Origin: Treponema sp.
GTDB taxonomy: Bacteria > Spirochaetota > Spirochaetia > Treponematales > Treponemataceae
NCBI GenBank assembly: GCA_003455655.1
Contig: DMQP01000055.1
Coordinates: 1-16,976 of the forward strand
Length of the DNA: 16,976 bases
Direction of reading: 5' to 3'
Shown: piece after piece, positions 708 to 14,887 of the stretch
Layout of the letters: each line of letters starts with the position of its first letter
How positions within the stretch are numbered: the first letter of the stretch is position 1
Translations under genes and position numbers: made by a program
The notes under the pieces: model-generated
Databases searched by the model: none
Seen by the model: only the letters and a program-made list of their open reading frames with translations
Told to the model about the DNA's origin: nothing

Positions 708-1964
708 TTATAAAGACATATCAAATTTTTTCATAAGCTTTGAACGCAAAAGCTGAGCATCTTCAGACTTAAGCCCAAGACGGTCTGCTGCATCCAAATC
801 TGCAAGCGCTTTTTGGTAGTCGCCTAAATTAAAATACGAAAGCGCTCGTCGGTAATAAACATGACTATGATATGCATTAAGTTCAATTGAAGCATCAAAA
901 CTTTTAATTGCATCTTTTTCATTACCTTGCACACTGTATACAATACCTTCGTAATAATAGGCTCTAAAGTTTTTAGGATCTTGTGCAATACTCTGCTTAA
1001 AGTCGGCAAGGCTTTCGTCATAGCGGTTTTGTGCAAAGTATGCCATACCTCGGTGCTTAAGAATTACCGACTGAACAATTGCTGGTGGCTGTGGAGTCGA
1101 TTCCAAAATTTGTGTGTAAATATGAACAGCCTTCTGTAAGTTACCTGTGTTGTGTGCATGAAGCGCTTCAAGCACTAAATCATCTATCGTACCCTTTGTG
1201 TAAGGAGAAGTGTCAACAATTGATTCGGGAGGAGGAAGTGGCGCCTGTTGCTTTGCGTCATGCTGTGTTTCTCCAGTAACAAAATCTGCTTTTTCGTAGA
1301 AAGTATTTCGTCTAAAGTCAAGTTCGTTTTGCAGTTTTTTCTGATAGTCACGAATTTCCTGAAAAATAATGTCTGCCAAAGTAAGACTTGCATTTATGGA
1401 AGCAAGTTTACGGCGCAAAGGTTTGTCAAAGGGATTAAACTCTGATTTATAAATAAGCTCGTGTTCTACTTCTGCCCAAGCATCTTGCAAAATGGTGCGT
1501 ATTTGAATTTCTACAACGGTATCAGCAGGCAGTTGCGGTTCTGCGAGTGTGGGCATACACTCTTTAGGAATTTTTACCAGCACATGTACTGACTCATAAC
1601 CAAACTCTTTAACCGTCTGATCATTTCCCTTGCGCTCTATTTCGGTAACATCAAAGGCTGCCTGTAACTGCTTTTCTACAACATCAAGATCTTCTAAAAA
1701 GGCACATATAACACGAATACCAATCATATCGGTAAGGGGAACTAAGGTGCGTGATGCTGCATCTTCCGATTTTTTTCTGAGAATTTTTTTATAATAACTG
1801 TCAAAAGATTTAATACGAGATTTATAAGTTGGATTTGAGGGCAAAGAAATGACGGTCTTTAACTTTTGTTCCATCAATTCAAGAACCTGCATAAACACCG
1901 GCTGATAGGAGGCATACAGATTTCTCATTGCTTCTTTTGCGGGTAATTGTTGTGTAGATTCCAT
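708..1964 (-). CDS. RelA/SpoT-domain (p)ppGpp synthetase with C-terminal TPRs
   Basis: This 418-residue protein should make (p)ppGpp from ATP and GTP or GDP. The synthetase domain covers roughly residues 40-215. Its markers are YKSRIKSF near 47, TDMIGIRV with the metal-binding Asp at 79, FGYESVHV near 121, and VEIQIRT with the catalytic Glu at 152, followed by DAWAEVEHELIYK. There is no HD hydrolase domain, so it looks synthesis-only. After a linker (about 225-258) residues ~255-400 form about four TPR-like helical pairs, which small alarmone synthetases usually lack. I chose the ATG at 1964 because GGAAAG sits 4 bases upstream (1969-1974). A TTG start at 1994 would fall within the U-tract side of the flaA terminator. 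No dedicated promoter is obvious. It lies between flaA and tRNA-Glu. Confidence 0.87.
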   Translation of the reverse strand: MESTQQLPAKEAMRNLYASYQPVFMQVLELMEQKLKTVISLPSNPTYKSRIKSFDSYYKKILRKKSEDAASRTLVPLTDMIGIRVICAFLEDLDVVEKQLQAAFDVTEIERKGNDQTVKEFGYESVHVLVKIPKECMPTLAEPQLPADTVVEIQIRTILQDAWAEVEHELIYKSEFNPFDKPLRRKLASINASLTLADIIFQEIRDYQKKLQNELDFRRNTFYEKADFVTGETQHDAKQQAPLPPPESIVDTSPYTKGTIDDLVLEALHAHNTGNLQKAVHIYTQILESTPQPPAIVQSVILKHRGMAYFAQNRYDESLADFKQSIAQDPKNFRAYYYEGIVYSVQGNEKDAIKSFDASIELNAYHSHVYYRRALSYFNLGDYQKALADLDAADRLGLKSEDAQLLRSKLMKKFDMSL

Positions 1965-1968
1965 TTTA

Positions 1969-1974
1969 CTTTCC
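1969..1974 (-). promoter_or_regulatory. Ribosome binding site deciding the synthetase start
   Basis: GGAAAG on the minus strand lies 4 bases before the ATG at 1964. It supports this start over the TTG 30 bases upstream, which has no comparable site. Confidence 0.65.
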
Positions 1975-1995
1975 GTACCAACTAAACTTTTCAAT

Positions 1996-2078: not shown

Positions 2079-3143
2079 TTACTGCTGAGAACCAGCGTTC
2101 TTGTAGTCGTCTGTATCAAAGAGTTCGTCTGCTGTAGACATCTTTGTGCGTTCGATAACACGGTTAACCTGCTTGTTACCAAAGCGACTGATTTCTGCAG
2201 CCTGGCGCTCTTTTTCTTTCTGTGTGATGATTCCCCACAGATCTTCTTCGTCGATGTCACGGTCAGCAGTAAGAACTGCCAAGTCATAGATAACGCGAAC
2301 GTCTTTGAAGTATCCTACGAAGTCTGCACCAATGTCAGCTGCGTCGCGGCAGATCTGGAAACCAGAGAACTTAACAAAAGGAACTCCACGAGGATAGATA
2401 GGATAAATGCGGATTTCGCGAGTACGAACTTCTGAAATGTAATCAGGGTTGTTCCATACAAGTGTCTTCCATCCGTCAAATTCCAAAGTACCCATGTAGT
2501 AGCGGCGTTCAACATTGTCGTTGTCGGTAAGCAGAACATAGAGTGAGTGGGGGAAGTTGTCTCCCATTGTTGTTACTGAAATTGATTTGATAGTTCCAAC
2601 ATTGTGGATAAGACCGTAACCTTCGTCAGCATTCTGTCCTTCGAACAGATATTTACCCTTCTGCTCTGCAGTGGGTTCCTGGCGGTTACCGTCAGCATCG
2701 TTATCTGAAAGTGGCTCATAAGCCTGAATCTCGAAGGGAGGAACAATTTTTGCGTTTGCATTTGAATTCCATGTGGGGAACAGGATGCGAACACCCATAA
2801 CGTCCTTACCTGCAAAGGGAACTTCTGCACTTTCTTTAACAGGAGCAGCCTTTACAACTGACAGACCCTTAGACTGCACATTCTGAGCAGAAGAGTTAAG
2901 AACAACTTCCCAGTTAGGCAGAGCGAGAGAAGTCTTCATCAATGACTTCTGATCATCAGTGAAAGAAGCACCTGCGGCAATTGAATAGTCCATCACAGTA
3001 CGGCCGTTCTCCGTGGCGTTTCCGTTTTCGTCCATGACGCAATCAGCTTCAAGATTGGTGAAGTCAATGAGCGTCTGTGTCTTTGCGAATGCACTTCCAG
3101 CCAAAAGCATGGCAGCTGCAGTCAACATTACAATTTTCTTCAT
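2079..3143 (-). CDS. flaA: FlaA, periplasmic flagellar filament outer-layer (sheath) protein
   Basis: The 354-residue product matches the spirochaete FlaA family in length (about 350 residues) and layout. A signal peptide occupies residues 1-20 and ends in SAFA before KTQ. Family-like segments follow, notably VMGVRILFPTWNSN (115-128) and IVPPFEIQAYE (133-143). FlaA is exported to the periplasm, where it coats the FlaB core of the flagellar filament. The ATG is preceded by AGAAGGAG with a 6-base gap, a strong ribosome site. The gene has its own sigma-70-type promoter (3188-3216) and hairpin terminator (1996-2022). No terminator separates it from the upstream operon, so read-through from that operon is also possible. 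Upstream neighbours are the GerMN-domain and amidase genes. Confidence 0.95.
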   Translation of the reverse strand: MKKIVMLTAAAMLLAGSAFAKTQTLIDFTNLEADCVMDENGNATENGRTVMDYSIAAGASFTDDQKSLMKTSLALPNWEVVLNSSAQNVQSKGLSVVKAAPVKESAEVPFAGKDVMGVRILFPTWNSNANAKIVPPFEIQAYEPLSDNDADGNRQEPTAEQKGKYLFEGQNADEGYGLIHNVGTIKSISVTTMGDNFPHSLYVLLTDNDNVERRYYMGTLEFDGWKTLVWNNPDYISEVRTREIRIYPIYPRGVPFVKFSGFQICRDAADIGADFVGYFKDVRVIYDLAVLTADRDIDEEDLWGIITQKEKERQAAEISRFGNKQVNRVIERTKMSTADELFDTDDYKNAGSQQ

Positions 3144-3187: not shown

Positions 3188-3216
3188 AGTATCTAACAAG
3201 TCGGGTTTTTTGTCAA
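3188..3216 (-). promoter_or_regulatory. flaA: Sigma-70-type promoter of flaA
   Basis: TTGACA (3216-3211, minus strand) is followed by a 17-nt spacer and GATACT (3193-3188), a 4/6 match to the -10 consensus. This predicts a leader of about 38 bases before the flaA ATG. No sigma-28-type TAAA-N15-CCGATA is present here, unlike ahead of the operon upstream. The 117-bp gap between the GerMN-domain gene and flaA holds this promoter and no clear hairpin terminator. Confidence 0.72.
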
Positions 3217-3260: not shown

Positions 3261-3719
3261 CTACCCTTCGACCTGTATACTGTCAATGTACACCTCTACA
3301 GTATCAATATTTGTGAAATTCCTCACAATATTCCGTTTAAGCATAGATATGCCTGTCTTTATATCGGCACATTCTTCTGAAAAGAACAGTGCGTTTTTAG
3401 ACAGACCTACATATACTTTTCCGTCCTTAACAATGCAGAATTCAACTGCGGTACCTTTAGCAAACAAAGGCAAAAAACGGTTGGTACGAGGACCCAACAC
3501 TAAGGATTCAGTAAAAGCACGAACTTGCTGCTGATTATCAGGCTCTTTGGAAACCAGGCGAGTCTCTGTATACACTTTATCTGAACCATATTCACCAAAA
3601 AACATAACATAAGGGTGCCAGGGGTTATGCATTGCATACAAAAGGGCACTTACAATAAAGGCAAGTCCTAAAATGAAAAGAGGAATTAGAAAAAGCTGTT
3701 TTTTTACGCTTTCTTTCAC
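3261..3719 (-). CDS. Membrane-anchored GerMN-domain protein
   Basis: This 152-residue protein has a short basic N-terminus, one membrane segment at about 9-29, and a periplasmic domain. ESLVLGPRTNRFLPLFAKGT (71-90) followed by KDGKVYVGLS (98-107) matches the GerMN fold pattern, first seen in spore-germination protein GerM and linked to the cell envelope. There is no lipobox cysteine after the hydrophobic stretch, so it looks membrane-anchored, not lipidated. The start is GTG, supported by GGAG 6 bases upstream. It lies 23 bases after the amidase stop, so the two are probably co-transcribed. The pairing with an amidase suggests a role in peptidoglycan remodelling near the flagellum; that role is inference. 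Confidence 0.75.
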   Translation of the reverse strand: MKESVKKQLFLIPLFILGLAFIVSALLYAMHNPWHPYVMFFGEYGSDKVYTETRLVSKEPDNQQQVRAFTESLVLGPRTNRFLPLFAKGTAVEFCIVKDGKVYVGLSKNALFFSEECADIKTGISMLKRNIVRNFTNIDTVEVYIDSIQVEG

Positions 3720-3725
3720 AAGTTA

Positions 3726-3729
3726 CTCC
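3726..3729 (-). promoter_or_regulatory. Ribosome binding site deciding the GTG start of the GerMN-domain gene
   Basis: GGAG on the minus strand lies 6 bases before GTG at 3719. The protein begins directly with its basic N-terminal flank and membrane segment from this codon. Confidence 0.65.
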
Positions 3730-3742
3730 AAAACCCAAAGAC

Positions 3743-4786
3743 TTACATTCCGGTAAATCCGCGGGAACGTTCAAAATGCGTTACAAACGCAGCAAGCCCA
3801 TTATATATCCCAAGGCTCAGTTTCTGCAAGTAGGTCTCATCTATAAGTTGCAGAGCTTCTTTTTCGTTAGTTAAAAATCCTGTTTCAATAAGAACACTGG
3901 GCATATTTACATTACGAACAACAAACCATTCTTCTGCTTTTATGCCACGAGAATTACTCAGATTTCCCACTTGAGCACCAATTCCATCGAGAATAAAGTT
4001 AGCAATAAGCATAGACTCTGTAGTAAATTCTTCTTCCATCATGTCGTTAAGAATTGAATTGACGGTTGAGTCTCCAGATAAATCTTCATTCAAAACTTGA
4101 CGGCGGTAACCAGGATTAAGATACCAAACTTCATAACCGCTTGCTTTTTTGTCGAGACTTGCATTCACGTGAACAGAAACATACAGTATTGCTTCGTTAG
4201 CAGAAAGTTTTACCGAATTAGCAATTTCAGTGCGCTGTTCAAGAGATAAAAACACATCGGTACTTCGTGTCATAAGAATGCGCTTATCTGGATACGCTTT
4301 TTTAAGACGGTCGTACAAAAGAAGTGCAACATTTAAGTTTATGTCTTTTTCGTTAACCGTAACTTTTTTTCCGCCAACAGTATAGCTTGCATTTGCTCCG
4401 GGGTCTTTTCCGCCGTGACCTGGATCTATAAGAATTGCTCCAATGCGATACTGAGCTGCGTTTGTTTCTGTCTTAAAGAAATTTTCTGCTGATGTCAAAA
4501 AGGCTTTTGTTACCATAAGATTTCCGTTTTGAACAAGGGGTGCATCGACAGAACGAATATGTGTATAATCTTCAAGAACAAAATCATCTCCCGCCTGGAA
4601 TGCAATCTGATGTCCGTTCTGTTCAAGAATTCCACACAAAGCAAGGGGATCCCAGTACAAAGTCATACCTGATTGAGCAGACGCTTCGCTTAAATTAACC
4701 AGTGCAGAAGTTTGCGCAAAAGTATGTGCTGCAAAAAAGAGACTTACAAAACAAAGACAGATAGCAAGGCGGAAGTACTTTTTCAT
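3743..4786 (-). CDS. Periplasmic N-acetylmuramoyl-L-alanine amidase (Amidase_3 type)
   Basis: This zinc enzyme should cleave the amide bond between N-acetylmuramic acid and L-alanine in peptidoglycan. The 347-residue protein has a signal peptide at 1-24 (cleavage after HTFA). A small domain at about 28-105 loosely resembles copper-amine-oxidase N-terminal modules. The catalytic domain covers about 115-338. Zinc ligands are His124 in DPGHGGKDPG, Glu146 in VNEKD and His206 in SVHVNA. The catalytic Glu301 is in IETGFL. An insertion between the last His and the catalytic Glu could be a regulatory helix, as in AmiB/AmiC-type enzymes. The ATG overlaps the ATP-grasp stop codon (ATGA, 4 bases) and has GGAGG upstream, so translation is probably coupled. 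Confidence 0.92.
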   Translation of the reverse strand: MKKYFRLAICLCFVSLFFAAHTFAQTSALVNLSEASAQSGMTLYWDPLALCGILEQNGHQIAFQAGDDFVLEDYTHIRSVDAPLVQNGNLMVTKAFLTSAENFFKTETNAAQYRIGAILIDPGHGGKDPGANASYTVGGKKVTVNEKDINLNVALLLYDRLKKAYPDKRILMTRSTDVFLSLEQRTEIANSVKLSANEAILYVSVHVNASLDKKASGYEVWYLNPGYRRQVLNEDLSGDSTVNSILNDMMEEEFTTESMLIANFILDGIGAQVGNLSNSRGIKAEEWFVVRNVNMPSVLIETGFLTNEKEALQLIDETYLQKLSLGIYNGLAAFVTHFERSRGFTGM

Positions 4787-6441
4787 TTGTTCCTCCGAGA
4801 ATGTCGGGCTGTTTTTTGTTCAAGTTGGAAAGAAGTGTCATCTGCAACATAGAGAGCGCCCTGAATTCCTCCGCGAATAAGAGCAGACCAAAATCGTTTT
4901 GCATTTAACACAGGATGTTGGGGACAAATTTGGTCAAAGAGTCTAAGCGTTTGCTTTAAGCTTCGGTGATTACAATCTTCTAAACTGTCTGCAACACTTT
5001 CTAAGACAGAAGGTAATTGCGAAAGAACAGGACTGTCTTGTTCAATATCAGGCAAAGATGAAAGTGAATCAACAAAATTTTGTCTAAGCGTTTCTTCAAG
5101 CGTAAAGAGAGAGGGAGGGAATCCCTTTTCTGATTTAAGCACTTTACCTGCAAGGAAGGCATCTGTTTCTTGATTAGGAGCTTCAAGACGAAGCACAAAA
5201 CATGCGGCACAGGTTTGGCTTGCATTAACGGCAAGTTCTCTTGTGGGAGCACGAGAAATAGCATTACCGCATTTTTCTACATTGTTACGAGGGAAGACAA
5301 CTTCACTACCCTCTTTTGCTCTAAGGAATGTATCTTGTACAAAGGGAACAGCGGTTGCCTGCTCTGCTCCATACACTTTTTTTACAATTCCCGGAACAGA
5401 AAGCCATGCTCTTTCTGCACTCACTTGCTGACAGGGAACTTCATAAATACCAAAAGGAACATCATGTATGGCAAGGGGGCGACGGTGCTGTAACAAATCC
5501 TCGGGTTCACGACCAGTTGCAATTAACAGCGCTTGTTTCGTTAAGTTAAGCGAAGAAGCATAAGGATATGTCCAACCAGACATATATCCTCCCGAAAGAC
5601 GAGCTGCAATTTCTCCAATCATGGGGCCTTTTTCTGTGTATTTGATATCAGCTTTTGCAACTCCGTTAGTAAGACCCAGTGCTTTTATGCCTCGAGCAAA
5701 ACATGCAATGAGTTCTGCCTTTACGTTTTCATCTGCTGATGTTGGCATAGTGTGACCCATTTCAATAAAGTAGGGTTCGTAAAAAATATGGCGGTCTGCA
5801 AAACCGGTGATGGTAAGTGTATCATGATACACAACTGCATCAATGGAATACTCAGAGCCCATCATGTAATCTTCAAGAATAGCTCGCCCACTCCGAGAAG
5901 CTCTGACTGCTTCTTCTACAGCAGGAAGAAACTCTTCTTTACTGCGAATCATACGACAACCGCGCGCTCCCATATTGTCTACGGGTTTAACAACAGAAGG
6001 AAAAGTAAGTTCGTCTAATTTTCCAGATGCAATAAACGATGCAATTTCTGTGCGAGAAATTTGTGTAAAGTGAGGAGAAGGAACAGCAGCTTCTTTGAAA
6101 CAGGTTCGCATGGCAATTTTGTCGCTTGCATTTAATGCAGCTTGGTAAGAATGTTGTTTTGGCAAATGACATTTTTCTGCAACATAAGAAACGGTGGTCG
6201 AAAAATCGGTTCCTGCGGTAAAAACGCCTGCAAGCTCAGAACCGAGCGACTGTGCAAGGGCAAGGACTGCATCTTTGTCCTTTAAGTCAATGGGCTCAAA
6301 GCGGTCTGCAAAGGGAACACATACTGCATGCGGATTTGCATCAACAACAACAGCCTTGTAGCCCAAAGCTTTTGCTGCTTCGATTGAAGGCTTTTGCATG
6401 AGGCCTGCTCCCAAAATAAGCACACAACTATTCTGCATCAT
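4783..6441 (-). CDS. ATP-grasp carboxylate-amine ligase-like protein
   Basis: The family joins a carboxylate to an amine or thiol through an acyl-phosphate, at the cost of ATP. An N-terminal Rossmann-like part (about 5-100) starts VLILGAGLMQKPSIEAAKA. The ATP-grasp core (about 110-310) shows FPSVVKPVDNMGARGC with Lys152, AILEDYMMGSEYSIDA with Glu190, and ADIKYTEKGPMIGEIAARLSGG-like metal-binding residues (Asp265, Glu277, Arg281). A KCGNAISRAPTRE segment follows near 395, typical of a closing domain in this superfamily. The last ~120 residues form a helical tail I do not recognise. AGGAG lies 6 bases before the first of two adjacent ATGs. The gene starts 9 bases after the fusion gene. The substrate is unknown; context suggests an amino-acid or similar group on the glycan. 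Confidence 0.83.
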   Translation of the reverse strand: MMQNSCVLILGAGLMQKPSIEAAKALGYKAVVVDANPHAVCVPFADRFEPIDLKDKDAVLALAQSLGSELAGVFTAGTDFSTTVSYVAEKCHLPKQHSYQAALNASDKIAMRTCFKEAAVPSPHFTQISRTEIASFIASGKLDELTFPSVVKPVDNMGARGCRMIRSKEEFLPAVEEAVRASRSGRAILEDYMMGSEYSIDAVVYHDTLTITGFADRHIFYEPYFIEMGHTMPTSADENVKAELIACFARGIKALGLTNGVAKADIKYTEKGPMIGEIAARLSGGYMSGWTYPYASSLNLTKQALLIATGREPEDLLQHRRPLAIHDVPFGIYEVPCQQVSAERAWLSVPGIVKKVYGAEQATAVPFVQDTFLRAKEGSEVVFPRNNVEKCGNAISRAPTRELAVNASQTCAACFVLRLEAPNQETDAFLAGKVLKSEKGFPPSLFTLEETLRQNFVDSLSSLPDIEQDSPVLSQLPSVLESVADSLEDCNHRSLKQTLRLFDQICPQHPVLNAKRFWSALIRGGIQGALYVADDTSFQLEQKTARHSRRNK

Positions 6442-6450
6442 ATAGCACTC

Positions 6451-8976
6451 CTAGTCCAAATCTGCGGTTTTACGGCAATAGACTTCAAATGTATCTCCAA
6501 GGTTAAAGAGATGACTTGCGGCTCCCAACATATTGTATTGGAGAGAATTCTTTTTCCAGCCATGTTTTTTTGCAGAAGGGAATCGTTCAGGATGAATTCC
6601 TGTTGAAACCGTTTTTACTACAGAAAAACCATAGCGCTTCAAAATAGACTGAGCTCGAGCTGGTTCCCACAGGGTATAATGGTCTGCGGGACTTTGGGTA
6701 AAGAAAGAACGCGTATTGTATTTTCCACTTACGCCAGAAGCTGACGGTGTACTAAAGGCAAAGACACCACCCTTTTTTACCAAACGAGAAACAGCTTTAA
6801 GCACACTATCTAAATCTTCAAAATGTTCAATAACGTACCACATAGTTACGGCATCAAACTGCTGAATACCAAATTCTCTTCCGGGATCAAACTGAGGAAA
6901 TGAAGAACATACTGCTGGATATTTAAGGGATGTCTGAACATATTCCACAGCATCTTTTGAAACATCAATGCCAAAGACTTGCCAACCACTATCATTTGCT
7001 GCATCCATAAAGGGTCCCATTGCACAGCCAATATCAAGTACCGTTGGAGTTACTGGAGAATGCATTCTGCGGTATACATAATCTATAAGTCCAACACGGC
7101 GCACTCCCTGAGCTTTAATTGACGCAAAATCATCAAGATAGGTTTTTCCATACTGCTTTTCGTAATCTTCAAAAAAGTATGCGTGATTGTATTGGGTTTC
7201 TTCAGACTGTAAAGTCCATGCCATATAGATCATGCCACAATTCTGACAGCGACGGAATGTTCTTTCGGGAGTTCGAGCTACAACAGGGTCTCGGTGACTA
7301 GAAAAAGTTCTACAGACAGGGCAAGAAATGCGACGACCTTGAGACAGACGAACAACAAAATCGGTAAGCGAAAGATTTTTCTGTTCAACAGGACGGAAGA
7401 GTGACTGTGGATTTGAAACTGCCTGTTTTACAGTCGATTCATTTACAGAAGCAGCAGGAATACAGGTAAAGCCATAGGTTTTTGCAAGGTCTTCGTGTAA
7501 AGCGGTCGTTCCCAAAAGTAAGACTGCACAGCCAGCATTTGCAGCTTCAAAAGCAGTAAATCCGTAATGAGTTACCACTAAATCGTAGGAAGCAAGTTTT
7601 TCACGCAAATTTTCTACAGGAGGAATAACTTTTACGAATTTGCTGATGTCTGCGTTTAAGTTTTCTTGCATAAGAATTGCATTTTCTTGCGAAGAGGCAA
7701 CAGCAGTTACATACATTCCCGTACGAGCAAGGGCAACGGTTGCGGGAACAGTAAGGCCAGCAGGATCTTCTCCGCCAAGAACAACAATTGCCGTATGAAG
7801 AGCGGCTTCTTTTGCACTTTCGTTTCTGCGGTTTTGTGGAAGCGGAATAAAAGCACTTTCGGTACGGTTTGCTTCACGACTAAGCCCTACTGAAGGAATA
7901 ATGTCCAGTAAGTAATCAACATAACTTGTATCGAGTCTGCCTTCGTCTAAAGCAGCAATAGCAACTTCAGGACAAGCAGTTAACTTTTGCACTATCTGAT
8001 CATCTGCATGGAACAAATCGGTAATAATCAGTTTGTAACAAGAGGCAGCGTTAATGTCTCTTACAATTTGGTACTGATTAAGACCTTCTTTTACTGCTTC
8101 TTGTAAAAGATTTTCGCACTGTTCAAGGCCTGCATCTTGGGGAATATAAATGTCCTGTCCTGTGGTGCAAGCAATATCAAGACAGCGTCTTAAGTGTCCG
8201 GTTCCCTTCCCTTTTTTTACACAGGGAACTAAAAGCACTGGATTTCTTACAAAGTTGTTCCACATGCCGTTAAGAATTTCTTCTGTGGTGTAAGCTTTCG
8301 TAACTGCCTTTTCTCCAGAAACAGCACGTACCAAAGCAAGTGCCCGACGGTAATCGGCAGGAGTGTCTATTGTGGTGCGTAATTCAGAATAATTCCAACG
8401 GTTGGGTGCCTTAATAAAAAGACAGTTATAAGATTCGCGGTGATTGTACAAAGCAGGTCCAACATGTTCGTGGTCGTAAGGATCTGAAGTTTCTGACGCT
8501 GCTTTCAAAAGTGAATGAGCATTAAACATTTCTACACCAGAACCGTGGGGTAAGTCGGAGAATGTAATATAGTCTACAGGGCTTGCTTCATCACGAACAG
8601 AAAATTCTTCTTCAAGAGCAGCTGCAGCTTCGTAAAACAAAAAGGGATTATCAGCGGTAGCACGAACAACTACATCTGCTTTTGACTGTTCTATGATGCG
8701 GCAAAAACGGTCAAGGACATCTTGAGTAGAACCAGCAAAAAGTTTCCAACCGTGACGCTCAGCAACAGCAGCAAGTTCTTTTTCACTATCGAAATCAGTT
8801 GCAAGATAGTATTCATCTGCAGGAACTTCTTTCATTGCATCTAAGACCCAGTCAATGACGCATTTTCCGCCTAAAGGAAGTAAAGCTTTGCGCGGTAATC
8901 GAGTCGAAGACAATCTGCACTGAACAATGAGAACTGTTTTTCTTTTTTTACGGTTGAACAAATTCAAAAACTTCAT
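6451..8976 (-). CDS. Three-domain fusion: SpsF-like cytidylyltransferase, PseG-like hydrolase/glycosyltransferase, zinc-ribbon SAM methyltransferase
   Basis: This 841-residue cytoplasmic protein joins three enzymes. Residues ~12-220 resemble the SpsF/CMP-sugar synthetase family: QCRLSSTRLPRKALLPL near 19-35, VVRATADNP (103-111) and TTIDTPADY (201-209). Residues ~246-545 resemble PseG, the UDP-sugar hydrolase of pseudaminic acid synthesis. GTGHLRRCLDIA has His261 at the place of the PseG catalytic His; ITDLFHADD (318-326), VVLGGEDP (398-405) and THYGFTAFEAANAG (469-482) also fit. Residues ~550-841 hold a zinc ribbon (Cys552, 555, 577, 580) and a class I methyltransferase with VLDIGCAMG (646-654). 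It starts one base after the preceding stop. The frame is intact throughout. The product is probably a methylated, CMP-activated sugar for flagellar modification, which is inference. Confidence 0.87.
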   Translation of the reverse strand: MKFLNLFNRKKRKTVLIVQCRLSSTRLPRKALLPLGGKCVIDWVLDAMKEVPADEYYLATDFDSEKELAAVAERHGWKLFAGSTQDVLDRFCRIIEQSKADVVVRATADNPFLFYEAAAALEEEFSVRDEASPVDYITFSDLPHGSGVEMFNAHSLLKAASETSDPYDHEHVGPALYNHRESYNCLFIKAPNRWNYSELRTTIDTPADYRRALALVRAVSGEKAVTKAYTTEEILNGMWNNFVRNPVLLVPCVKKGKGTGHLRRCLDIACTTGQDIYIPQDAGLEQCENLLQEAVKEGLNQYQIVRDINAASCYKLIITDLFHADDQIVQKLTACPEVAIAALDEGRLDTSYVDYLLDIIPSVGLSREANRTESAFIPLPQNRRNESAKEAALHTAIVVLGGEDPAGLTVPATVALARTGMYVTAVASSQENAILMQENLNADISKFVKVIPPVENLREKLASYDLVVTHYGFTAFEAANAGCAVLLLGTTALHEDLAKTYGFTCIPAASVNESTVKQAVSNPQSLFRPVEQKNLSLTDFVVRLSQGRRISCPVCRTFSSHRDPVVARTPERTFRRCQNCGMIYMAWTLQSEETQYNHAYFFEDYEKQYGKTYLDDFASIKAQGVRRVGLIDYVYRRMHSPVTPTVLDIGCAMGPFMDAANDSGWQVFGIDVSKDAVEYVQTSLKYPAVCSSFPQFDPGREFGIQQFDAVTMWYVIEHFEDLDSVLKAVSRLVKKGGVFAFSTPSASGVSGKYNTRSFFTQSPADHYTLWEPARAQSILKRYGFSVVKTVSTGIHPERFPSAKKHGWKKNSLQYNMLGAASHLFNLGDTFEVYCRKTADLD

Positions 8977-8977
8977 C

Positions 8978-9955
8978 TTATTTTCCCCAGTTTTCTATGA
9001 GCAGTGCCGCATCTGTTTTAAAGCGGTACTTGTTTTTTTCAGTCCATGCACGAGCTTCGGAAAAAGAACGAATCGCTTCGTGTAATCCCAGTGAAGCATG
9101 ACGCTTGTAAGAAAAAAATGATATTTTGGGAATAACCGCATGATCAACATCATATACAGGAGCAAGATTTTTCAAATAAAAGCGCAGGTATGAACGGTCA
9201 GCGGTAGTATCGACAATTGAAGGAAGCATATCATAAATAAGAACAAAGGCAGAAGACAGTGAACATTTTTCTCCCCACAGCCAGGCACGCATAAAAAGAT
9301 CAAGCTTTTGCCAGTATTCAGAAGTAATGGTATAGTCTGCTCCTCCCAGTTCAATGTAGGTTTTTCGATTGTACAAACCAACCCAATCTGCTGCAAAAAG
9401 AGTCAAACTTCCGTCTACAGTACTGGTTAAAGGAAGCACGGTAAACTGAGCTTTTTTTGTATCGGGAACAAAAATGACAGGACGGTTTTCTAGCTGAGCA
9501 TCGTACATGTTCTCTTGAGTAAGCGCACACAATCGCGGACACACGCAAAACTGTTTATGTTCAACAAGAAGCTTTTCTAAAAGAGGCGTAATGATTGTAT
9601 TTTGATGGCACAGATCATCGGTTAAAACAAGAACATAGTCATTAGTAAGTTGAGCCATACCTATGTTAATCATATCTCCAATAGTTAAGTCTTCGCGGGT
9701 TATAACAAAATGTACTTGCGGAAACTGATGTACCAAAGTGTCAAACTGTGCGCTGGGGTTACTTGCCATTACGCAAACAATATCTGAAAATCCGGAAGCA
9801 ATGCAGTGTTCCAAACTGTGAGTCAAAAGTTGGTGACCGTTACGGTTTAAAAGCAGACATCCGCTTGTAAGTAAGGGATGAGTAATTCGTTCACTTCCGC
9901 CTAAGACGGTGAGTGTTATTTGACGCTGATTAAAAATTGAAGGTATAGTACTCAT
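8978..9955 (-). CDS. GT-A fold glycosyltransferase or nucleotidyltransferase-like protein
   Basis: This 325-residue protein has an N-terminal half like sugar-nucleotide transferases: TVLGGSERITHPLL, then LLLNRNGHQLLTHSLEHCIASGFSDIVCV (33-61). YVLVLTDDL includes Asp113-Asp114 at the likely metal site. A later stretch, GGADYTITSEYWQKLDLFMR, resembles the C-terminal motif of family 2 and galactosyl-type transferases, where an acidic pair contacts the acceptor. It could transfer a sugar to protein or lipid, or make an activated sugar. I chose ATG at 9955 because AGGA lies 6 bases upstream. A GTG at 9985 would lengthen the protein by 10 residues but has no good ribosome site. It overlaps the preceding gene by 26 bases, so translation is probably coupled. 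No signal peptide or membrane segment is visible. Confidence 0.72.
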   Translation of the reverse strand: MSTIPSIFNQRQITLTVLGGSERITHPLLTSGCLLLNRNGHQLLTHSLEHCIASGFSDIVCVMASNPSAQFDTLVHQFPQVHFVITREDLTIGDMINIGMAQLTNDYVLVLTDDLCHQNTIITPLLEKLLVEHKQFCVCPRLCALTQENMYDAQLENRPVIFVPDTKKAQFTVLPLTSTVDGSLTLFAADWVGLYNRKTYIELGGADYTITSEYWQKLDLFMRAWLWGEKCSLSSAFVLIYDMLPSIVDTTADRSYLRFYLKNLAPVYDVDHAVIPKISFFSYKRHASLGLHEAIRSFSEARAWTEKNKYRFKTDAALLIENWGK

Positions 9956-11537
9956 CACACTTCCTGCACAATTCTGAATATTCACCGCTTACTTGACACG
10001 GTACCTGTTTTACAATCTGTTGCCACACTTCACTTACCGACTGACTGCATACATTTAAGTCTGAAGCTTCTGGCATCAGAGCCTGACACAGAGGCACAGA
10101 ACCGTCTGCACGAATAATCATGTCTCGCTTTACATGCCAACAGGGAGTTCGCACTAAGGGAGAAAGATCTGCTGGTTTTTCATCACTTAAAAATCCTGCA
10201 CAAGAGTCATATTTTTGAATAATGACATTTCCATCTGATGGAGATGAAGAGTCATGCCAGTAACGGTAAAATGTTTCTAGTTCTGCTTCATTTGCCTTCA
10301 TGCGAACCATTTGTGCATACACACGACCTTTAAACAGAGGACTCAGTATGCCCACCGCGGCTTTTGCTTTTGCAAAACACTCTCGCCCCGCACCTTCAGA
10401 AAGAGGAATGTGAATCGAAAGATATGTTGCTTCGCTTGCAGCATCAAGACAAACAATCCAGGTAAGTCGACCGTCTGCATCAAGTGATGCAATTTGAGAT
10501 GCAAGTTCTGGGGTAACTAATGTTCCGTCTGTTTCAATCAATACTTTCAGTTTAGGCTGAGCAAGCAGTGTTTTTACACATGCAATAAAATCTGGATGCA
10601 AAAGAGGCTCTCCTCCTGCTCCCAAGCAAATGTATGCATCATCTGAAAGTTCTACAATTTGCTGTGTAAGCGCTTGCAGTTGAGAAAGTCCAAGCACAGT
10701 CGTTTTGTGTTCCATTCCCAAAGTTGGATAAGCGTTAGTGCGTTTTTTAAAGCCTGCAGCAAAGGCATTGTAGCTTATGGTTGTGCAAGAGTCTGAAGTA
10801 AGTTGAATTGCATAGTAAGCAGGAACAGTTGCCTGAACGCTTGCATGTTGAGCGGCTAAGACAGAAAGTTCATTTGCAGAAAATTCAGATTTTTCTGCAG
10901 CAAGTTTATACAAGTGACAGCAAGCTAAATACCTGCCTTTTGTTTCTGTAGTAAAGTCTAAGCGAAGGTAACGCCAGTCACGGGGAGAAAGGACAGACTC
11001 TACTTCAAAAGAATTGATGTCTGTTTTTAGCGCATTCATTAGACAGTCTCCGTCAACGCATGAACGGGCACAGGCTTTGTCTTTAATAAGGTCTTTTAAA
11101 ATAACCGCGGTAGAAGCAGCAAGAACTTCTGGAGCAAGCGCTTTGGGGTAACCGTCGGCACAAGTGTATTCGGCACAGTAGCGCTGGTGGGCGTCTATAA
11201 CTTTTTGTGTAAGAGCTGAGTCAAGAAAAGGAGCTGCAAGAGGAGCAAGCAAAATACTATCTGCCGCATTTTCTGAACAAGCACTTATAAGAACATCAAG
11301 CAAAGTGTCTGTGTTCCAAAGCTCTTTTACAAGGGTTTTACCCGAAAGACCAGCCTTTAAAAAAGCGTTTTTTACCTGTTCTTCGTTTGAAGCAGTACAG
11401 GCAACATATACATTTTGGCAGGAAGAAAAAGCCTTTGCCCACTGTAGCGAGCGTTCAGCGGCACTTTTTCCGTCAAAAGAAGGTTCAAAGACATAAGGAG
11501 AATTGGTAACTGCATATAAAAAAACAAGGCTTTTCAT
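9930..11537 (-). CDS. Spiro-SPASM-type protein: nucleotidyltransferase-like N-terminus, degenerate radical SAM core, SPASM C-terminus
   Basis: This 535-residue protein is first in the operon. Residues 1-~200 look like a nucleotidyltransferase fold (VFLYAVTNSPYVFEPSFDGK, then ILLAPLAAPFLD and TCADGYPKALAPE). From about 240 it follows a radical SAM layout: AIQLTSDSC, LGAGGEPLLHPDF with the SAM-binding GGEP at 308-311, VLIETDGTLV at 332-341. Where CX3CX2C belongs, the sequence is Cys251-TTI-Ser255-YN-Ala258, so two of three cluster cysteines are missing. The C-terminus keeps SPASM-like cysteines (466, 484, 497, 514, 524, 527) around PCWHVKRDM and ELCRKC. I recall a spirochaete family named spiro-SPASM with this character. 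No ribosome site precedes the ATG; a sigma-28-like promoter ends 8 bases upstream. Role is unknown, probably sugar activation or target recognition for the pathway. Confidence 0.82.
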   Translation of the reverse strand: MKSLVFLYAVTNSPYVFEPSFDGKSAAERSLQWAKAFSSCQNVYVACTASNEEQVKNAFLKAGLSGKTLVKELWNTDTLLDVLISACSENAADSILLAPLAAPFLDSALTQKVIDAHQRYCAEYTCADGYPKALAPEVLAASTAVILKDLIKDKACARSCVDGDCLMNALKTDINSFEVESVLSPRDWRYLRLDFTTETKGRYLACCHLYKLAAEKSEFSANELSVLAAQHASVQATVPAYYAIQLTSDSCTTISYNAFAAGFKKRTNAYPTLGMEHKTTVLGLSQLQALTQQIVELSDDAYICLGAGGEPLLHPDFIACVKTLLAQPKLKVLIETDGTLVTPELASQIASLDADGRLTWIVCLDAASEATYLSIHIPLSEGAGRECFAKAKAAVGILSPLFKGRVYAQMVRMKANEAELETFYRYWHDSSSPSDGNVIIQKYDSCAGFLSDEKPADLSPLVRTPCWHVKRDMIIRADGSVPLCQALMPEASDLNVCSQSVSEVWQQIVKQVPCQVSGEYSELCRKCDEYYTFNF

Positions 11538-11595: not shown

Positions 11596-11624
11596 TTGAC
11601 ACATACAATCAGATACGGTACAAT
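11596..11624 (+). promoter_or_regulatory. Sigma-70-type promoter of xseA-xseB-mutL
   Basis: TTGACA (11596-11601), a 17-nt spacer and TACAAT (11619-11624) form a near-consensus promoter. Only six bases separate the -10 box from the xseA ATG at 11631, so transcription is predicted to begin at or beside the start codon. A GATAC-N9-GTATC inverted repeat (11612-11630) overlaps the -10 box. Confidence 0.85.
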
Positions 11625-11630
11625 TGTATC

Positions 11631-12842
11631 ATGGGTGAAGGAAAGACGCTGACAGTCTCTCAGCTGACAAATCTTATAAAAGTATTGCTCGAAGATTCAT
11701 TTAAAACAGTCACTTTAGAGGGCGAAATTTCAAATTTTAAGCGGAACACCAACGGTCACCTCTATTTTCAACTAAAAGACAATTACAGTCAAATAAGCGC
11801 CGTTATGTTTAGGGGAAGTGCGTCAAAACTCAAATTTGAACCCAAAGACGGCATGAAAGTCATAGCACAAGGACAAATTACCGTCTACGAACCCCGAGGA
11901 AACTATCAGATTCTTATTACTTCCATGACCCCCGCTGGTGTGGGAAACATTATGGAAATGCTTGAACAAAGAAAGCAAAAGCTTTATCAAGAAGGTCTGT
12001 TTGATTCAAGCAGAAAAAAGCCCCTTCCCCGCTTTCCTCGCACAGTAGGCATTGTTACCAGTTCAACGGGAGCAGCCTTACGCGACATAATGAACATTGC
12101 TAAAAGCAGAAACAATTCGGTAAACCTTATTGTCTTACCGGCACAAGTCCAAGGGCTCGATGCCAGTCGCACTATTATTTCTCAAATTGAAGCCGCTAAC
12201 ACTTGGTCTCTTTGCGATGTTCTGATTGTAGGTCGAGGCGGCGGTTCTCTCGAAGATTTACTGCCCTTTAGTGACGAAGGAGTGGTAAGAGCAATTGCCG
12301 CATCCACCATTCCTATTGTTTCTGCAGTAGGACATGAAATTGACTGGGCACTGAGTGACTTTGCAGCAGATGTTCGGGCTTCAACCCCCAGTCATGCCGC
12401 AGAAATTGTTATTCCCCAAAAGCAGAACATACGAGATTCTTTGCATCAGATTGAATCAGACTTGTATACGGCAGTAAGCGCACGCACTCAAAACTTACGC
12501 CTTATGCTTAAAACCTTTACCCCACAAAACATGGAGCTTCAGTTCCGCAGCATAGAACAAAAACTGTCACTTCGTTACGACACAGCCCGAGAAGAATTGA
12601 TTAACGGCATAAAACAGCGCATAAGCGATTCCCGCACTTATATCAAACACTGCACAGACATTCTTGAAAGCGCAAGCCCCCAATCTATTTTTAACAGAGG
12701 CTACAGTATGGTAACCGATGCCCAAACAGGAAAGGTTATTCGAAACGCAGAAGACACTGCAGCTGGATTGTCTATAGTCATTCGCCCCGCACAGGGTTCC
12801 ATACACGCAAGCGTTACAAAAACGCAAAAGGCAGGTACATGA
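11631..12842 (+). CDS. xseA: Exodeoxyribonuclease VII large subunit
   Basis: XseA is the catalytic subunit of exonuclease VII, which digests single-stranded DNA from both ends to short oligonucleotides. The 403-residue protein has an N-terminal OB fold (about 8-105: LEGEISNFKRNTNGHLYFQLKD, VYEPRGNYQI). The catalytic domain (about 125-310) shows GLFDSSRKKPLP, VGIVTSSTGAALRDI (139-153), GRGGGSLEDL (201-210) and SAVGHEIDWALSDFAADVRASTPS. A coiled-coil C-terminal part binds the small subunits. It is slightly shorter than the E. coli protein (456 residues). The ATG at 11631 aligns with the family start, and no in-frame start lies just upstream. No ribosome site precedes it. The stop overlaps the xseB ATG by 4 bases. 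Confidence 0.95.
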   Translation: MGEGKTLTVSQLTNLIKVLLEDSFKTVTLEGEISNFKRNTNGHLYFQLKDNYSQISAVMFRGSASKLKFEPKDGMKVIAQGQITVYEPRGNYQILITSMTPAGVGNIMEMLEQRKQKLYQEGLFDSSRKKPLPRFPRTVGIVTSSTGAALRDIMNIAKSRNNSVNLIVLPAQVQGLDASRTIISQIEAANTWSLCDVLIVGRGGGSLEDLLPFSDEGVVRAIAASTIPIVSAVGHEIDWALSDFAADVRASTPSHAAEIVIPQKQNIRDSLHQIESDLYTAVSARTQNLRLMLKTFTPQNMELQFRSIEQKLSLRYDTAREELINGIKQRISDSRTYIKHCTDILESASPQSIFNRGYSMVTDAQTGKVIRNAEDTAAGLSIVIRPAQGSIHASVTKTQKAGT

Positions 12843-13114
12843 TGAATACATTCGAAACCAATTTACAGAGACTTGAAGAACTTACCGCACAAATTAAAAA
12901 GCCTGATATTTCTCTTGAAGATGCACTTAAAGATTTTGAAGAAGGCATTACGCTTGCAAAAAAGCTAGAAAAAGACCTCAATGCCATCGAAGGAAAAATA
13001 CAGATTCTTATGAATGGAGACGAAGCTACAAGTTCAAAAACGAAAGCAAAAGCTGCTCCAGAATTAGACTTGTTTAACCCCAGTACCGAACTAAATGGAA
13101 CTCGTAACGGATAA
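12839..13114 (+). CDS. xseB: Exodeoxyribonuclease VII small subunit
   Basis: XseB binds the coiled-coil part of XseA in multiple copies. The 91-residue product has the two-helix family pattern: FETNLQRLEELTAQIKKPD followed by ISLEDALKDFEEGITLAKKLEKDL. After it comes a charged, low-complexity tail of about 30 residues (ATSSKTKAKAAPEL), longer than the compact core and probably disordered. The start overlaps the xseA stop (ATGA). Two ATGs stand next to each other, so translation may begin at 12839 or 12842. GGCAGG upstream is a fair ribosome site. mutL starts 10 bases after its stop. Confidence 0.93.
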   Translation: MMNTFETNLQRLEELTAQIKKPDISLEDALKDFEEGITLAKKLEKDLNAIEGKIQILMNGDEATSSKTKAKAAPELDLFNPSTELNGTRNG

Positions 13115-13123
13115 GGAAAAATC

Positions 13124-14887
13124 ATGAGCGGTCGTGTTCATACACTCAGTCCTGAAGTCGCACGCAAAATTGCAGCTGGTGAAGTTATAGACAGACCCAA
13201 CGCCATAGTGCGCGAACTTATGGATAACGCAGTAGACTCTGGAGCTACTTCCATTCGAGTTGAACTAGCGGGTGGTGGCATAGAGCGTGTTAGAGTTATA
13301 GACAACGGTTGTGGCATGAGTAAAGAAGACTTACTTGCCTGTGCCCGCCCTCACGCAACAAGCAAAATTACAAGCGAAACCGATTTACTTACCCTTTCCA
13401 CACTGGGCTTTCGTGGAGAAGCCCTTGCTTCTATGGCGGCAGTAAGCAGACTGCTTATTCAAAGCGGCGGTTGGAAAATGAATGCGTCAATTACCCAAGA
13501 CCATCTGCTTACCCCCACCGCACAAACCGAAGGCACCATTGTTCAAACGGAAGCTCTTTTTGAAAATGTACCTGCCCGACGCATGTTCTTAAAAAGAGAA
13601 GCCAGTGAAGGCTTGTTGTGTCGCGCAACCTTCGAAGAAAAAGCCTTACCCCGACCAGATATTGCATTCAGTCTCTACATGGACGGAGAAGAAAAACTAA
13701 CCCTTCCCCAAGGTCAAAGTTTAATTGAACGCTTTACCCAAACCCTTTCCCTTTTTGAACAGTCAGATCTCTTTTACGAAATAAAAAATCAGGCAACAGA
13801 CAAAAGCTGGTCCTTTAGTCTTATTATAGGTGAACCCTCTGTTTCTCGGGCAAACCGCAAAAACATTTACATTTATGTTAACGGAAGACGCATTCAAGAA
13901 TACTCGCTCATGCAAGCTATAGAATATGGCTGTCAGGGTTACTTTCCAAACGGTCAGCATCCTATTGCCTGTCTTTTTGTTCAAATGGATTCGTCACTGG
14001 TAGACTTTAACATTCACCCTGCAAAAAGAGAAGCTCGCTTTAAAGACATTTCTTCCTTACATCATGCAGTAAGCACAAGCACATCATCTTTTTTCAAAAA
14101 CTACACAACCGCTTCCATGGTACACCAAAGTCCTGAATCTTCTGTAAGTAGCCCAGACTTATTTACACCCAACATGTCTTCTGTTCCCAAAGCAGATTAC
14201 AAAAGCGCCTACCGAGCCCCGCAAAAACTATTTTCGTTTAACAAAGCCACTTCTACTTCATCAATGCAAAGTCTTGCCCAACAAGCGGCAGAAGTAGAAA
14301 CAAGTTTTAAGCCCAATTATCTTCCCTCTCAAAACGACAGCACCGAAGATTCTTTTCACTTTGTAGGAAGTACACTGGGAACTTTTTTAATTGCCGAAAA
14401 AAACAACACCCTCTACATTATTGACCAACACGCAGCACACGAGCGCATTCTCTATAACACCATTATGCAAAATGCAGGCGAAAAACAGCAGCTTTTAGTT
14501 CCCTACCGCATTACCACAGATAACGAAGCAGATGACGCATACATTTCTCACATGCAAAAAACACTTGGTGAATGGGGCTTTGAATGTAGTCAAAAAGATG
14601 GTTCTTGGCTTTTTACCACCGTCCCCCTGCGTTGGAAAGGAACCGAAGCAGACTTAAAGCACGACATTTTAGACCGTCGCATAAACCCCAAAGACATTAT
14701 AAATGCAGTAGCAGCCTCTACCGCTTGTAGACGAGCCGTTATGGACGGAACAGTTTTAGATGATGATAGTGCAGCAGACCTTGCACGAAAAGCCCTTGAG
14801 CTTCCCGACCCCCACTGCCCTCATGGCCGACCTGTCTTTACCAAAATTACACGAGAACAACTTTTTGCTTTGGTTAAACGCACATAA
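13124..14887 (+). CDS. mutL: DNA mismatch repair protein MutL
   Basis: MutL couples mismatch recognition by MutS to downstream repair. The 587-residue protein starts with the GHKL ATPase: KIAAGEVIDRPNAIVREL with catalytic Glu31, DNAVDSGA with Asn35, VIDNGCGM (58-65), HATSKI (77-82) and GFRGEA (95-100). The transducer domain follows (VNGRRIQEYSLM, VDFNIHPAKREARFKD). A low-complexity linker spans about 325-410. The C-terminal dimerisation domain carries endonuclease-type motifs: DQHAAHERILYN (434-445), ACRRAVMDG (534-542) and CPHGRP (565-570). The DQHA(X)2E(X)4E motif has Asn445 instead of the last Glu. AAGGA lies 6 bases before the ATG. No terminator follows; the stop is 2 bases from the end of the convergent TPR gene. 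Confidence 0.95.
   Translation: MSGRVHTLSPEVARKIAAGEVIDRPNAIVRELMDNAVDSGATSIRVELAGGGIERVRVIDNGCGMSKEDLLACARPHATSKITSETDLLTLSTLGFRGEALASMAAVSRLLIQSGGWKMNASITQDHLLTPTAQTEGTIVQTEALFENVPARRMFLKREASEGLLCRATFEEKALPRPDIAFSLYMDGEEKLTLPQGQSLIERFTQTLSLFEQSDLFYEIKNQATDKSWSFSLIIGEPSVSRANRKNIYIYVNGRRIQEYSLMQAIEYGCQGYFPNGQHPIACLFVQMDSSLVDFNIHPAKREARFKDISSLHHAVSTSTSSFFKNYTTASMVHQSPESSVSSPDLFTPNMSSVPKADYKSAYRAPQKLFSFNKATSTSSMQSLAQQAAEVETSFKPNYLPSQNDSTEDSFHFVGSTLGTFLIAEKNNTLYIIDQHAAHERILYNTIMQNAGEKQQLLVPYRITTDNEADDAYISHMQKTLGEWGFECSQKDGSWLFTTVPLRWKGTEADLKHDILDRRINPKDIINAVAASTACRRAVMDGTVLDDDSAADLARKALELPDPHCPHGRPVFTKITREQLFALVKRT

Follow-up and report, generated by a model that had tools for sequence, protein, structure and literature searches.

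The most likely role of a six-gene operon within a 16,976-nucleotide stretch of Treponema sp. DNA (contig DMQP01000055.1 of assembly GCA_003455655.1; hereafter the window) is to make and activate an unusual acidic sugar for the proteins of the internal flagella of spirochaetes. At a probability of roughly 0.7, we read the genes, their order and co-occurrence, the predicted folds of their products and the covariation of flagellin sites as the traces of a scattered nonulosonic-acid pathway for flagellin, each reaction of which we infer. Judged from sequence, this is best read as a variant form of a known class of pathway, with an ATP-grasp ligase in the place of PseH.

All six open reading frames were present on the minus strand between positions 3261 and 11537 (Table 1). 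The operon is real, and its coordinates agree with the original prediction of a one-strand cluster with overlaps or gaps of at most 23 bases. The GT-A reading frame (8978-9985) begins with GTG, and starting from the ATG at 9955 it overlaps the spiro-SPASM frame by 26 bases. A single base separates the GT-A gene from the fusion gene and 9 bases lie between the latter and the ATP-grasp gene, which overlaps the amidase gene by 4 bases; another 23 bases lead to the GerMN gene. The contiguous order through flaA held in 51 of the 114 records compared (the window and 113 loci); the remaining 63, taken as a group, are short records, ones that stop sooner and ones with split hits.

Table 1. Features of the operon and of the adjoining flaA gene (positions in the window)
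Feature	Position	Strand	Basis or remark
Spiro-SPASM protein	9930..11537	-	Degenerate cytidylyltransferase-fold N-domain and pseudo-radical-SAM/SPASM domain
GT-A protein, polypeptide GalNAc-transferase-like fold	8978..9955	-	GTG start of the reading frame at 9985
SpsF-type cytidylyltransferase / PseG-like UDP-sugar hydrolase / methyltransferase fusion, with CPxC...CxxC stretch	6451..8976	-	Pfam, 6oew, invariant motifs
ATP-grasp carboxylate-amine ligase with LAL_C2	4783..6441	-	Pfam, PDB relatives, invariant D265/E277/R281
N-acetylmuramoyl-L-alanine amidase (Amidase_3)	3743..4786	-	Pfam; with GerMN and flaA in G045
GerMN (Germane) protein	3261..3719	-	PF10646 31.7 bits, cut-off 23
flaA, filament outer-layer protein	2079..3143	-	PF04620 249.9 bits
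flaA promoter TTGACA-N17-GATACT	3188..3216	-	Motif scan and conservation across gaps

The domain matches support the expected chemistry. The fusion protein matched CTP_transf_3 (PF02348, 99.2 bits) and Methyltransf_23 (75.3 bits) as well as PDB entry 6oew (E 9.5e-29), while its PseG-like domain reached 25.6 bits against a PseG cut-off of 153.55. The key residues of the SpsF loop, QCRLSSTRLP in the window, were invariant in 20 sequences, as were those of the CP.C, C..C and SAM motifs and of GTGH, which we take to be a motif of the PseG-like domain. For the GT-A protein the predicted fold was GT27-like, the GT27 DxH metal motif was absent, and a role as nucleotidyltransferase was discarded (hhalign to SpsF, probability 1%). 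The amidase (Amidase_3, 151 bits) is, from its sequence, probably exported.

Apart from the Lyme-disease family, almost every flagellated spirochaete sampled carries the key genes, a profile that depends on few independent losses. Among 246 Spirochaetota genomes, 229 carried flagellin and 17 did not. Spiro-SPASM was matched in 198 genomes (188 over the cut-off), 196 of them with flagellin; the ATP-grasp ligase (E<=1e-40) occurred in 193, all with flagellin; and Maf-like proteins (PF01973) occurred in 197, of which 196, each over the cut-off, were the same genomes as the set with spiro-SPASM and flagellin. Strong NeuB matches (PF03102, E<1e-30) were found in 193 of the 196 operon-type genomes: G026 and G038 had none, and G208 combined the operon with weak NeuB and Maf matches. 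The ATP-grasp ligase fell short of the threshold in G094, G148 and G149. In 14 control genomes spiro-SPASM never exceeded its cut-off, and PF01973, which also covers MptE-like proteins, did so in four, all archaea. The 33 flagellin genomes without spiro-SPASM were Borreliaceae-like, a label based on flagellin position and on PF02414 (Borrelia family), which was present in 31 of them (not G177 and G204) and in none of 8 other genomes tested; in these 33, none of the spiro-SPASM, ATP-grasp, NeuB, Maf or fusion profiles gave a match.

Candidates for the remaining steps of the pathway are encoded outside the operon. In the two genomes scanned, NeuB had the NeuB+SAF architecture while falling short of the NCBIfam equivalog cut-offs for both PseI and NeuB, and a PseB-family dehydratase (PF02719) lay beside the aminotransferase. 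The PseC model gave 239-367 bits in 16/16 operon-type genomes, below its cut-off of 423.5, and also matched 13/14 controls and the genomes G167 and G190 (173-187 bits). Indeed, the PseB-, PseC-, PseG- and NeuB/PseI-like proteins all scored below their NCBIfam equivalog cut-offs. In the nearest relative (G004), a region of ~31 kb on one contig holds the operon together with NeuB and the aminotransferase/dehydratase pair. PseH did not exceed its cut-off of 93.1 in any of 20 genomes; among the 16 operon-type genomes, seven had no match and nine a weak one (<=68.5 bits), and GNAT proteins missed by this model could still acetylate. By domain matches and co-occurrence, the general class of chemistry originally predicted, that of an activated sugar, is supported. 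The observation that no complete known pathway is represented held for the operon only: elsewhere in the genome there are a NeuB and a PseC-like aminotransferase, along with a PseB-family dehydratase in the two genomes scanned.

FlaB is the best-supported candidate target of the sugar. At two flagellin sites, Glu and Asp occurred in all 20 sampled Borreliaceae-like genomes versus mostly Ser in operon-bearing species, so that these sites covary with the operon. Alternatively, the operon could modify the adjacent sheath protein FlaA, alone or besides FlaB. The adjacency of flaA speaks for this idea, as does a review in which FlaA, FlaB and FlaB1 of Treponema denticola are described as heavily glycosylated (PMC9862357). 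However, FlaA was present in 228 of the 246 genomes, including all 33 operon-less Borreliaceae-like ones, the covarying sites are in flagellin, and the 450.2 Da glycan of T. denticola, which is reported to be essential for filament assembly, was described on its three FlaB proteins (PMC9481697). Moreover, flaA and the sugar cluster lie apart in G045 and G022, and in G045 the amidase and GerMN genes remain beside flaA. The ATP-grasp gene is likewise far from the sugar cluster in both genomes, a point against the pathway as proposed, although a phylum-wide search showed that each of them has the gene.

Also arguing against FlaA as the target, flaA has its own promoter. The gene starts 117 bases past GerMN, after the sequence TTGACA-N17-GATACT. 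Although the promoter scan as a whole was at chance (15 sites versus 15.4 expected), this site is credible because it is conserved: a match of at least 9/12 was found in 55 of 56 GerMN-flaA gaps (fraction in shuffled gaps, which preserve base composition only, 0.43), compared with 6/57 amidase-GerMN gaps (0.15), 3/56 ATP-grasp-amidase gaps (0.21) and 20/47 flaA-relA gaps (0.43). It is therefore probable that flaA is transcribed as a unit of its own, although read-through from the operon may occur. The terminator scan (13 sites versus 8.5 expected) found none between GerMN and flaA; that flaA follows with no visible terminator was correct to this extent, but the gap holds a conserved promoter. 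Together these findings leave FlaA as a special target unsupported, and we regard it as unlikely.

The nature of the acyl group would depend on the ATP-grasp ligase, which matched ATP-grasp_4 (49.6 bits) and LAL_C2 (46.2 bits). Its residues D265, E277 and R281, presumably the metal-binding Asp/Glu and the Arg of ATP-grasp ligases, were invariant in 21 sequences. Given its LAL_C2 domain and the L-amino acid ligases among its nearest solved relatives, which include 3vot and BacD, the enzyme might add an amino acid to form an amino-acyl sugar, as had been tentatively proposed. In distant lineages, however, it is fused to an FMN 2-hydroxyacid dehydrogenase domain, and none of the amino-acyl and dipeptide options that we tried on a mono-acetylated sugar gave the 450.2 Da of the T. 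denticola glycan. In contrast, a nonulosonic acid with one acetyl and one O-methyl-3-deoxyhexonoyl group, following the structure that an abstract reportedly gives for this glycan, has a calculated mass of 450.185, which fits. Although the glycan of the window's species need not be that of T. denticola, we consider an amino-acyl sugar improbable; for the window's species itself the acyl group is one that we infer.

A third explanation is that the sugar serves an envelope polysaccharide or lipid and that flagella correlate with it via lifestyle only. A NeuB and SpsF pathway of Bacillus subtilis does serve the spore crust (PMC7439481). Nevertheless, neither the ATP-grasp ligase nor an over-cut-off spiro-SPASM was found in any of the 17 flagellin-less genomes, despite strong NeuB in two of them (G167 and G190; 13 more had weak NeuB), and the Maf-like proteins track the operon genes. 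An operon common in spirochaetes without flagella, which would have contradicted the original prediction, was thus not encountered, apart from two weak spiro-SPASM matches below the cut-off. This makes the envelope reading very unlikely, and the proposal of an activated, methylated and acylated sugar for flagellar proteins is supported by genes that are found alongside flagellin, NeuB and Maf-like proteins but not in the genomes lacking flagellin.

The spiro-SPASM protein scored 459.7 bits against the curated TIGR04321 cut-off of 250, and the CxxxCxxC cluster motif of radical-SAM enzymes was absent from the window's copy, as its pseudo-radical-SAM/SPASM label had anticipated; on its motifs, the radical-SAM gene is degenerate in this species. 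That it acts as a peptide (RiPP) maturase in a cluster making a modified peptide is highly improbable, as the cluster cysteines are gone in 106 of 134 aligned sequences (the motif is kept in 28), the N-domain has a degenerate cytidylyltransferase fold by prediction, and the only PDB relative by sequence is the butirosin-biosynthesis radical-SAM enzyme BtrN.

Parts of the flagellin pathway resemble known systems. In T. denticola, a member of the same phylum, the FlaB glycan, with which the above mass agrees, requires pseI (TDE0960) (PMC9481697, PMC9862357). The sfmABCDE genes of Shewanella oneidensis likewise combine a methyltransferase with an ATP-grasp_4 carboxylate-amine ligase, the glycan is a mono-acetylated nonulosonic acid (274 Da) to which a second large, methylated group of 236-264 Da is joined, and deletions of the first four genes are listed as non-motile on soft agar. 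Unlike here, the other genes encode a TPP-dependent enzyme, a reductase and a further protein; the accessible text names no SpsF/PseG/methyltransferase fusion or spiro-SPASM, and, against our model, the ATP-grasp mutant still swims (PMC3765264). The B. subtilis legionaminic acid pathway SpsM-C-D-G-E-F shares the order of dehydratase, aminotransferase, acyl step, hydrolase, synthase and cytidylyltransferase, but uses the putative acetyltransferase SpsD rather than an ATP-grasp ligase, and for the spore crust rather than flagella (PMC7439481). The type B flagellin locus of Clostridium difficile encodes an ATP-grasp protein and a methyltransferase domain, yet its glycan is GlcNAc-rhamnose with a sulfonated peptidylamido end, and no nonulosonic acid is named in the text available (PMC5207246). 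In Leptospira, putative glycans were placed between flagellar core and sheath (PMC13144727). A point against our reading is that no nonulosonic acid could be identified in Leptospira biflexa by DMB-HPLC-MS (PMC3438082). A published phylogenetic profiling of spirochaete motility genes names two uncharacterised families, DUF2225 and OG9070, in the accessible text (PMC12236494), and TP0286 and TP0288 both occur in another report (PMC3265458). Our literature search did not find the fusion, ATP-grasp, GT-A or spiro-SPASM proteins assigned to the T. denticola glycan, which the primary paper may do.

In the proposed pathway, to which the first four genes of the operon would contribute, a UDP-4-amino sugar would come from a dehydratase of the PseB family and an aminotransferase of the PseC family, both encoded elsewhere, and to its amine the ATP-grasp ligase, replacing PseH, would join a sugar-derived hydroxy acid. 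The methyltransferase domain would methylate the 2-hydroxyl of this acid, the PseG-like domain would remove UDP, NeuB would add pyruvate and the SpsF domain would form the CMP sugar. Its transfer to Ser/Thr of FlaB would then fall to Maf-type transferases, which the GT-A protein might assist. Spiro-SPASM may have been kept as a partner of SpsF that does no radical chemistry in this species, and the amidase, GerMN and flaA may form a second, adjoining flagellar module, in which the first two could help to place the flagellum, as originally suggested. A more tentative extension, which we rate at somewhat below even odds, is that a PseH-less pathway was ancestral in flagellated spirochaetes, with an ATP-grasp enzyme installing a methylated sugar acid and a partner made of a dead cytidylyltransferase and a dead radical-SAM domain, and that the Borreliaceae lost it, coded Glu/Asp at the same two flagellin sites replacing the negative charge of the sugar.

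Most of the genes for this glycan were not found named in the literature searched, and the present set would provide candidates for each step of its synthesis across the phylum, testable by single gene removals. If the extended scenario is true, it would predict an acid-mimic swap in the flagellins of the Lyme group.

In the reading favoured here, the operon and genes scattered elsewhere in the genome would together make a nonulosonic acid for the flagellin FlaB. To map the distribution of these genes, one set of 246 Spirochaetota genomes was searched seven times, with thresholds of E ≤ 1e-40 for the ATP-grasp ligase and 1e-3 for the others, and overlaps between the searches were established by comparing the lists of positives by eye. 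Flagellin was found in 229 of the 246 genomes and FlaA in 228, namely in all flagellin-bearing genomes except G091. Spiro-SPASM matched in 198 genomes (188 above the cut-off), comprising 196 with flagellin, here termed operon-type, and the flagellin-less G180 and G220 (3e-5 and 5e-7); among 14 control genomes, 10 matched spiro-SPASM without the cut-off and none with it. The fusion profile was likewise matched in 198 genomes, consisting of the same 196 and weak matches in G165 and G214, with many matches spanning just one or two domains. For the ATP-grasp ligase there were 193 positives, the same 196 without G094, G148 and G149. NeuB was detected in 211 genomes, and also in 9 of the 14 controls. 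At E < 1e-30 it was present in 193 of the 196 operon-type genomes (the exceptions being G026, G038 and G208) and in the flagellin-less genomes G167 and G190, while 13 more flagellin-less genomes gave weak matches. The Maf-like family PF01973 was matched in 197 genomes, made up of the 196 (G208 at just 2e-12) and G190 (7e-13), as well as in 4 of the 14 controls, every one an archaeon. Most operon-bearing genomes contained three to five PF01973 matches, with four in G045. In the 33 flagellin-bearing genomes without spiro-SPASM, the same searches returned no ATP-grasp, NeuB, Maf or fusion match either, and 31 of these Borreliaceae-like genomes carried the Borrelia family PF02414. Because the genomes are related, few independent losses lie behind these co-occurrence counts.

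The other genes of the pathway are scattered in the genome. NeuB carried a SAF domain in both cases scanned, and six of seven NeuB neighbourhoods, read by eye, held no further evident pathway gene. At locus L157, a set consisting of ATP-grasp, amidase, GerMN and flaA starts about 5 kb from NeuB. In G045 and in G004, the nearest relative, a PF02719 dehydratase and a PseC-family aminotransferase either overlap or lie end to end, and similar-looking ORFs adjoin in G207. NeuB, this gene pair and the operon share one contig in G004. An ORF set that by eye gave the impression of being xanthine-dehydrogenase-like adjoins the PseB/PseC-like pair in loci L178 and L179 (G045 and G004).

Positions of features in the window and in related loci
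Feature	Sequence	Position	Remark
RelA/SpoT-domain protein with TPR repeats	window	708-1994	comes after flaA
xseA, small ORF, mutL	window	11596-14887	divergent from the operon
Promoter match, 11 of 12	window	11596	
Xanthine-dehydrogenase-like ORF set	L178	9050-12591	
Xanthine-dehydrogenase-like ORF set	L179	118-2783	
NeuB	G004 contig	17.5 kb	
Dehydratase/aminotransferase pair	G004 contig	29-31 kb	
Operon	G004 contig	from 47 kb	

ORF and family scans of the window bore out the six genes and their order as described in the original prediction. The source of the window is a rumen-type Treponema relative, and among the best 80 of 412 loci the closest was L001 (isolate RUG11131), with 76% identity over spiro-SPASM. 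The contiguous order through flaA was found in 51 of 114 records; the remaining ones, viewed as a group, stop too soon, are of short length or show split hits. In 42 of the 51 records with the complete order, flaA is followed by a gene for a RelA/SpoT-domain protein. On the other side, 93 bases separate spiro-SPASM from the start of xseA. The genes fall into two modules. The G045 genome has spiro-SPASM and GT-A grouped with the fusion, of 862 residues, at L126 and has amidase, GerMN and flaA grouped separately at L162; its ATP-grasp gene is located apart from both groups. In several far lineages (L133, L134, L136-L139 and L143), SpsF adjoins spiro-SPASM without a GT-A hit, and in L131, L141, L142 and L144 no match to the operon models was found beside spiro-SPASM. 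Furthermore, flaA has a promoter of its own, conserved in 55 of 56 gaps.

Profile searches gave no PseH above the cut-off in any of 20 genomes, and it is for this reason that we propose the ATP-grasp ligase for the acyl step, which it would carry out in place of PseH. In some far lineages, the ligase bears an additional domain that belongs to the FMN-dependent 2-hydroxyacid dehydrogenase family and scores 217.7 bits in L183 and 60.8 bits in L180; the closest NCBIfam relatives of this domain are lactate oxidases and dehydrogenases. The masses of a mono-acetylated nonulosonic residue (274.116) and an O-methyl-3-deoxyhexonoyl group (176.068) add up to 450.185, and the flagellin glycan of T. denticola has a reported mass of 450.2, according to PMC9481697. 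This arithmetic favours a hydroxy acid as the acyl group in T. denticola. The mono-acetylated core proposed here resembles that of Shewanella, for which a 274 Da core is also described in PMC3765264. Against the nonulosonic reading, L. biflexa is reported to have yielded no identifiable nonulosonic acid by DMB-HPLC-MS (PMC3438082); conjecturally, an unusual acyl form might escape this test.

Two serines lie in motifs reported to be glycosylated in Treponema, and they are substituted in FlaB of Borrelia burgdorferi and FlaB4 of L. interrogans, as stated in PMC7431986. Both sites were examined in 60 flagellins, each from a different genome and taken from listed rows, representing 20 of the 33 Borreliaceae-like genomes and 40 of the 196 others. 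Four of the 40 flagellins from operon-bearing genomes (L210-L249) failed to align; among the 36 aligned, each site was Ser in 33, and both were Ser in 31. Residues found instead of Ser were, among others, Asp, Glu, Lys, Asn and Leu; the genomes concerned have further flagellins outside the check. All 20 Borreliaceae-like flagellins (L190-L209) carried acidic residues at the two sites, Glu at one and Asp at the second. Since the Borreliaceae-like genomes form one clade, this change counts as one event. The Glu and Asp residues would be consistent with the sugar having been lost and an acidic substitute having taken its place.
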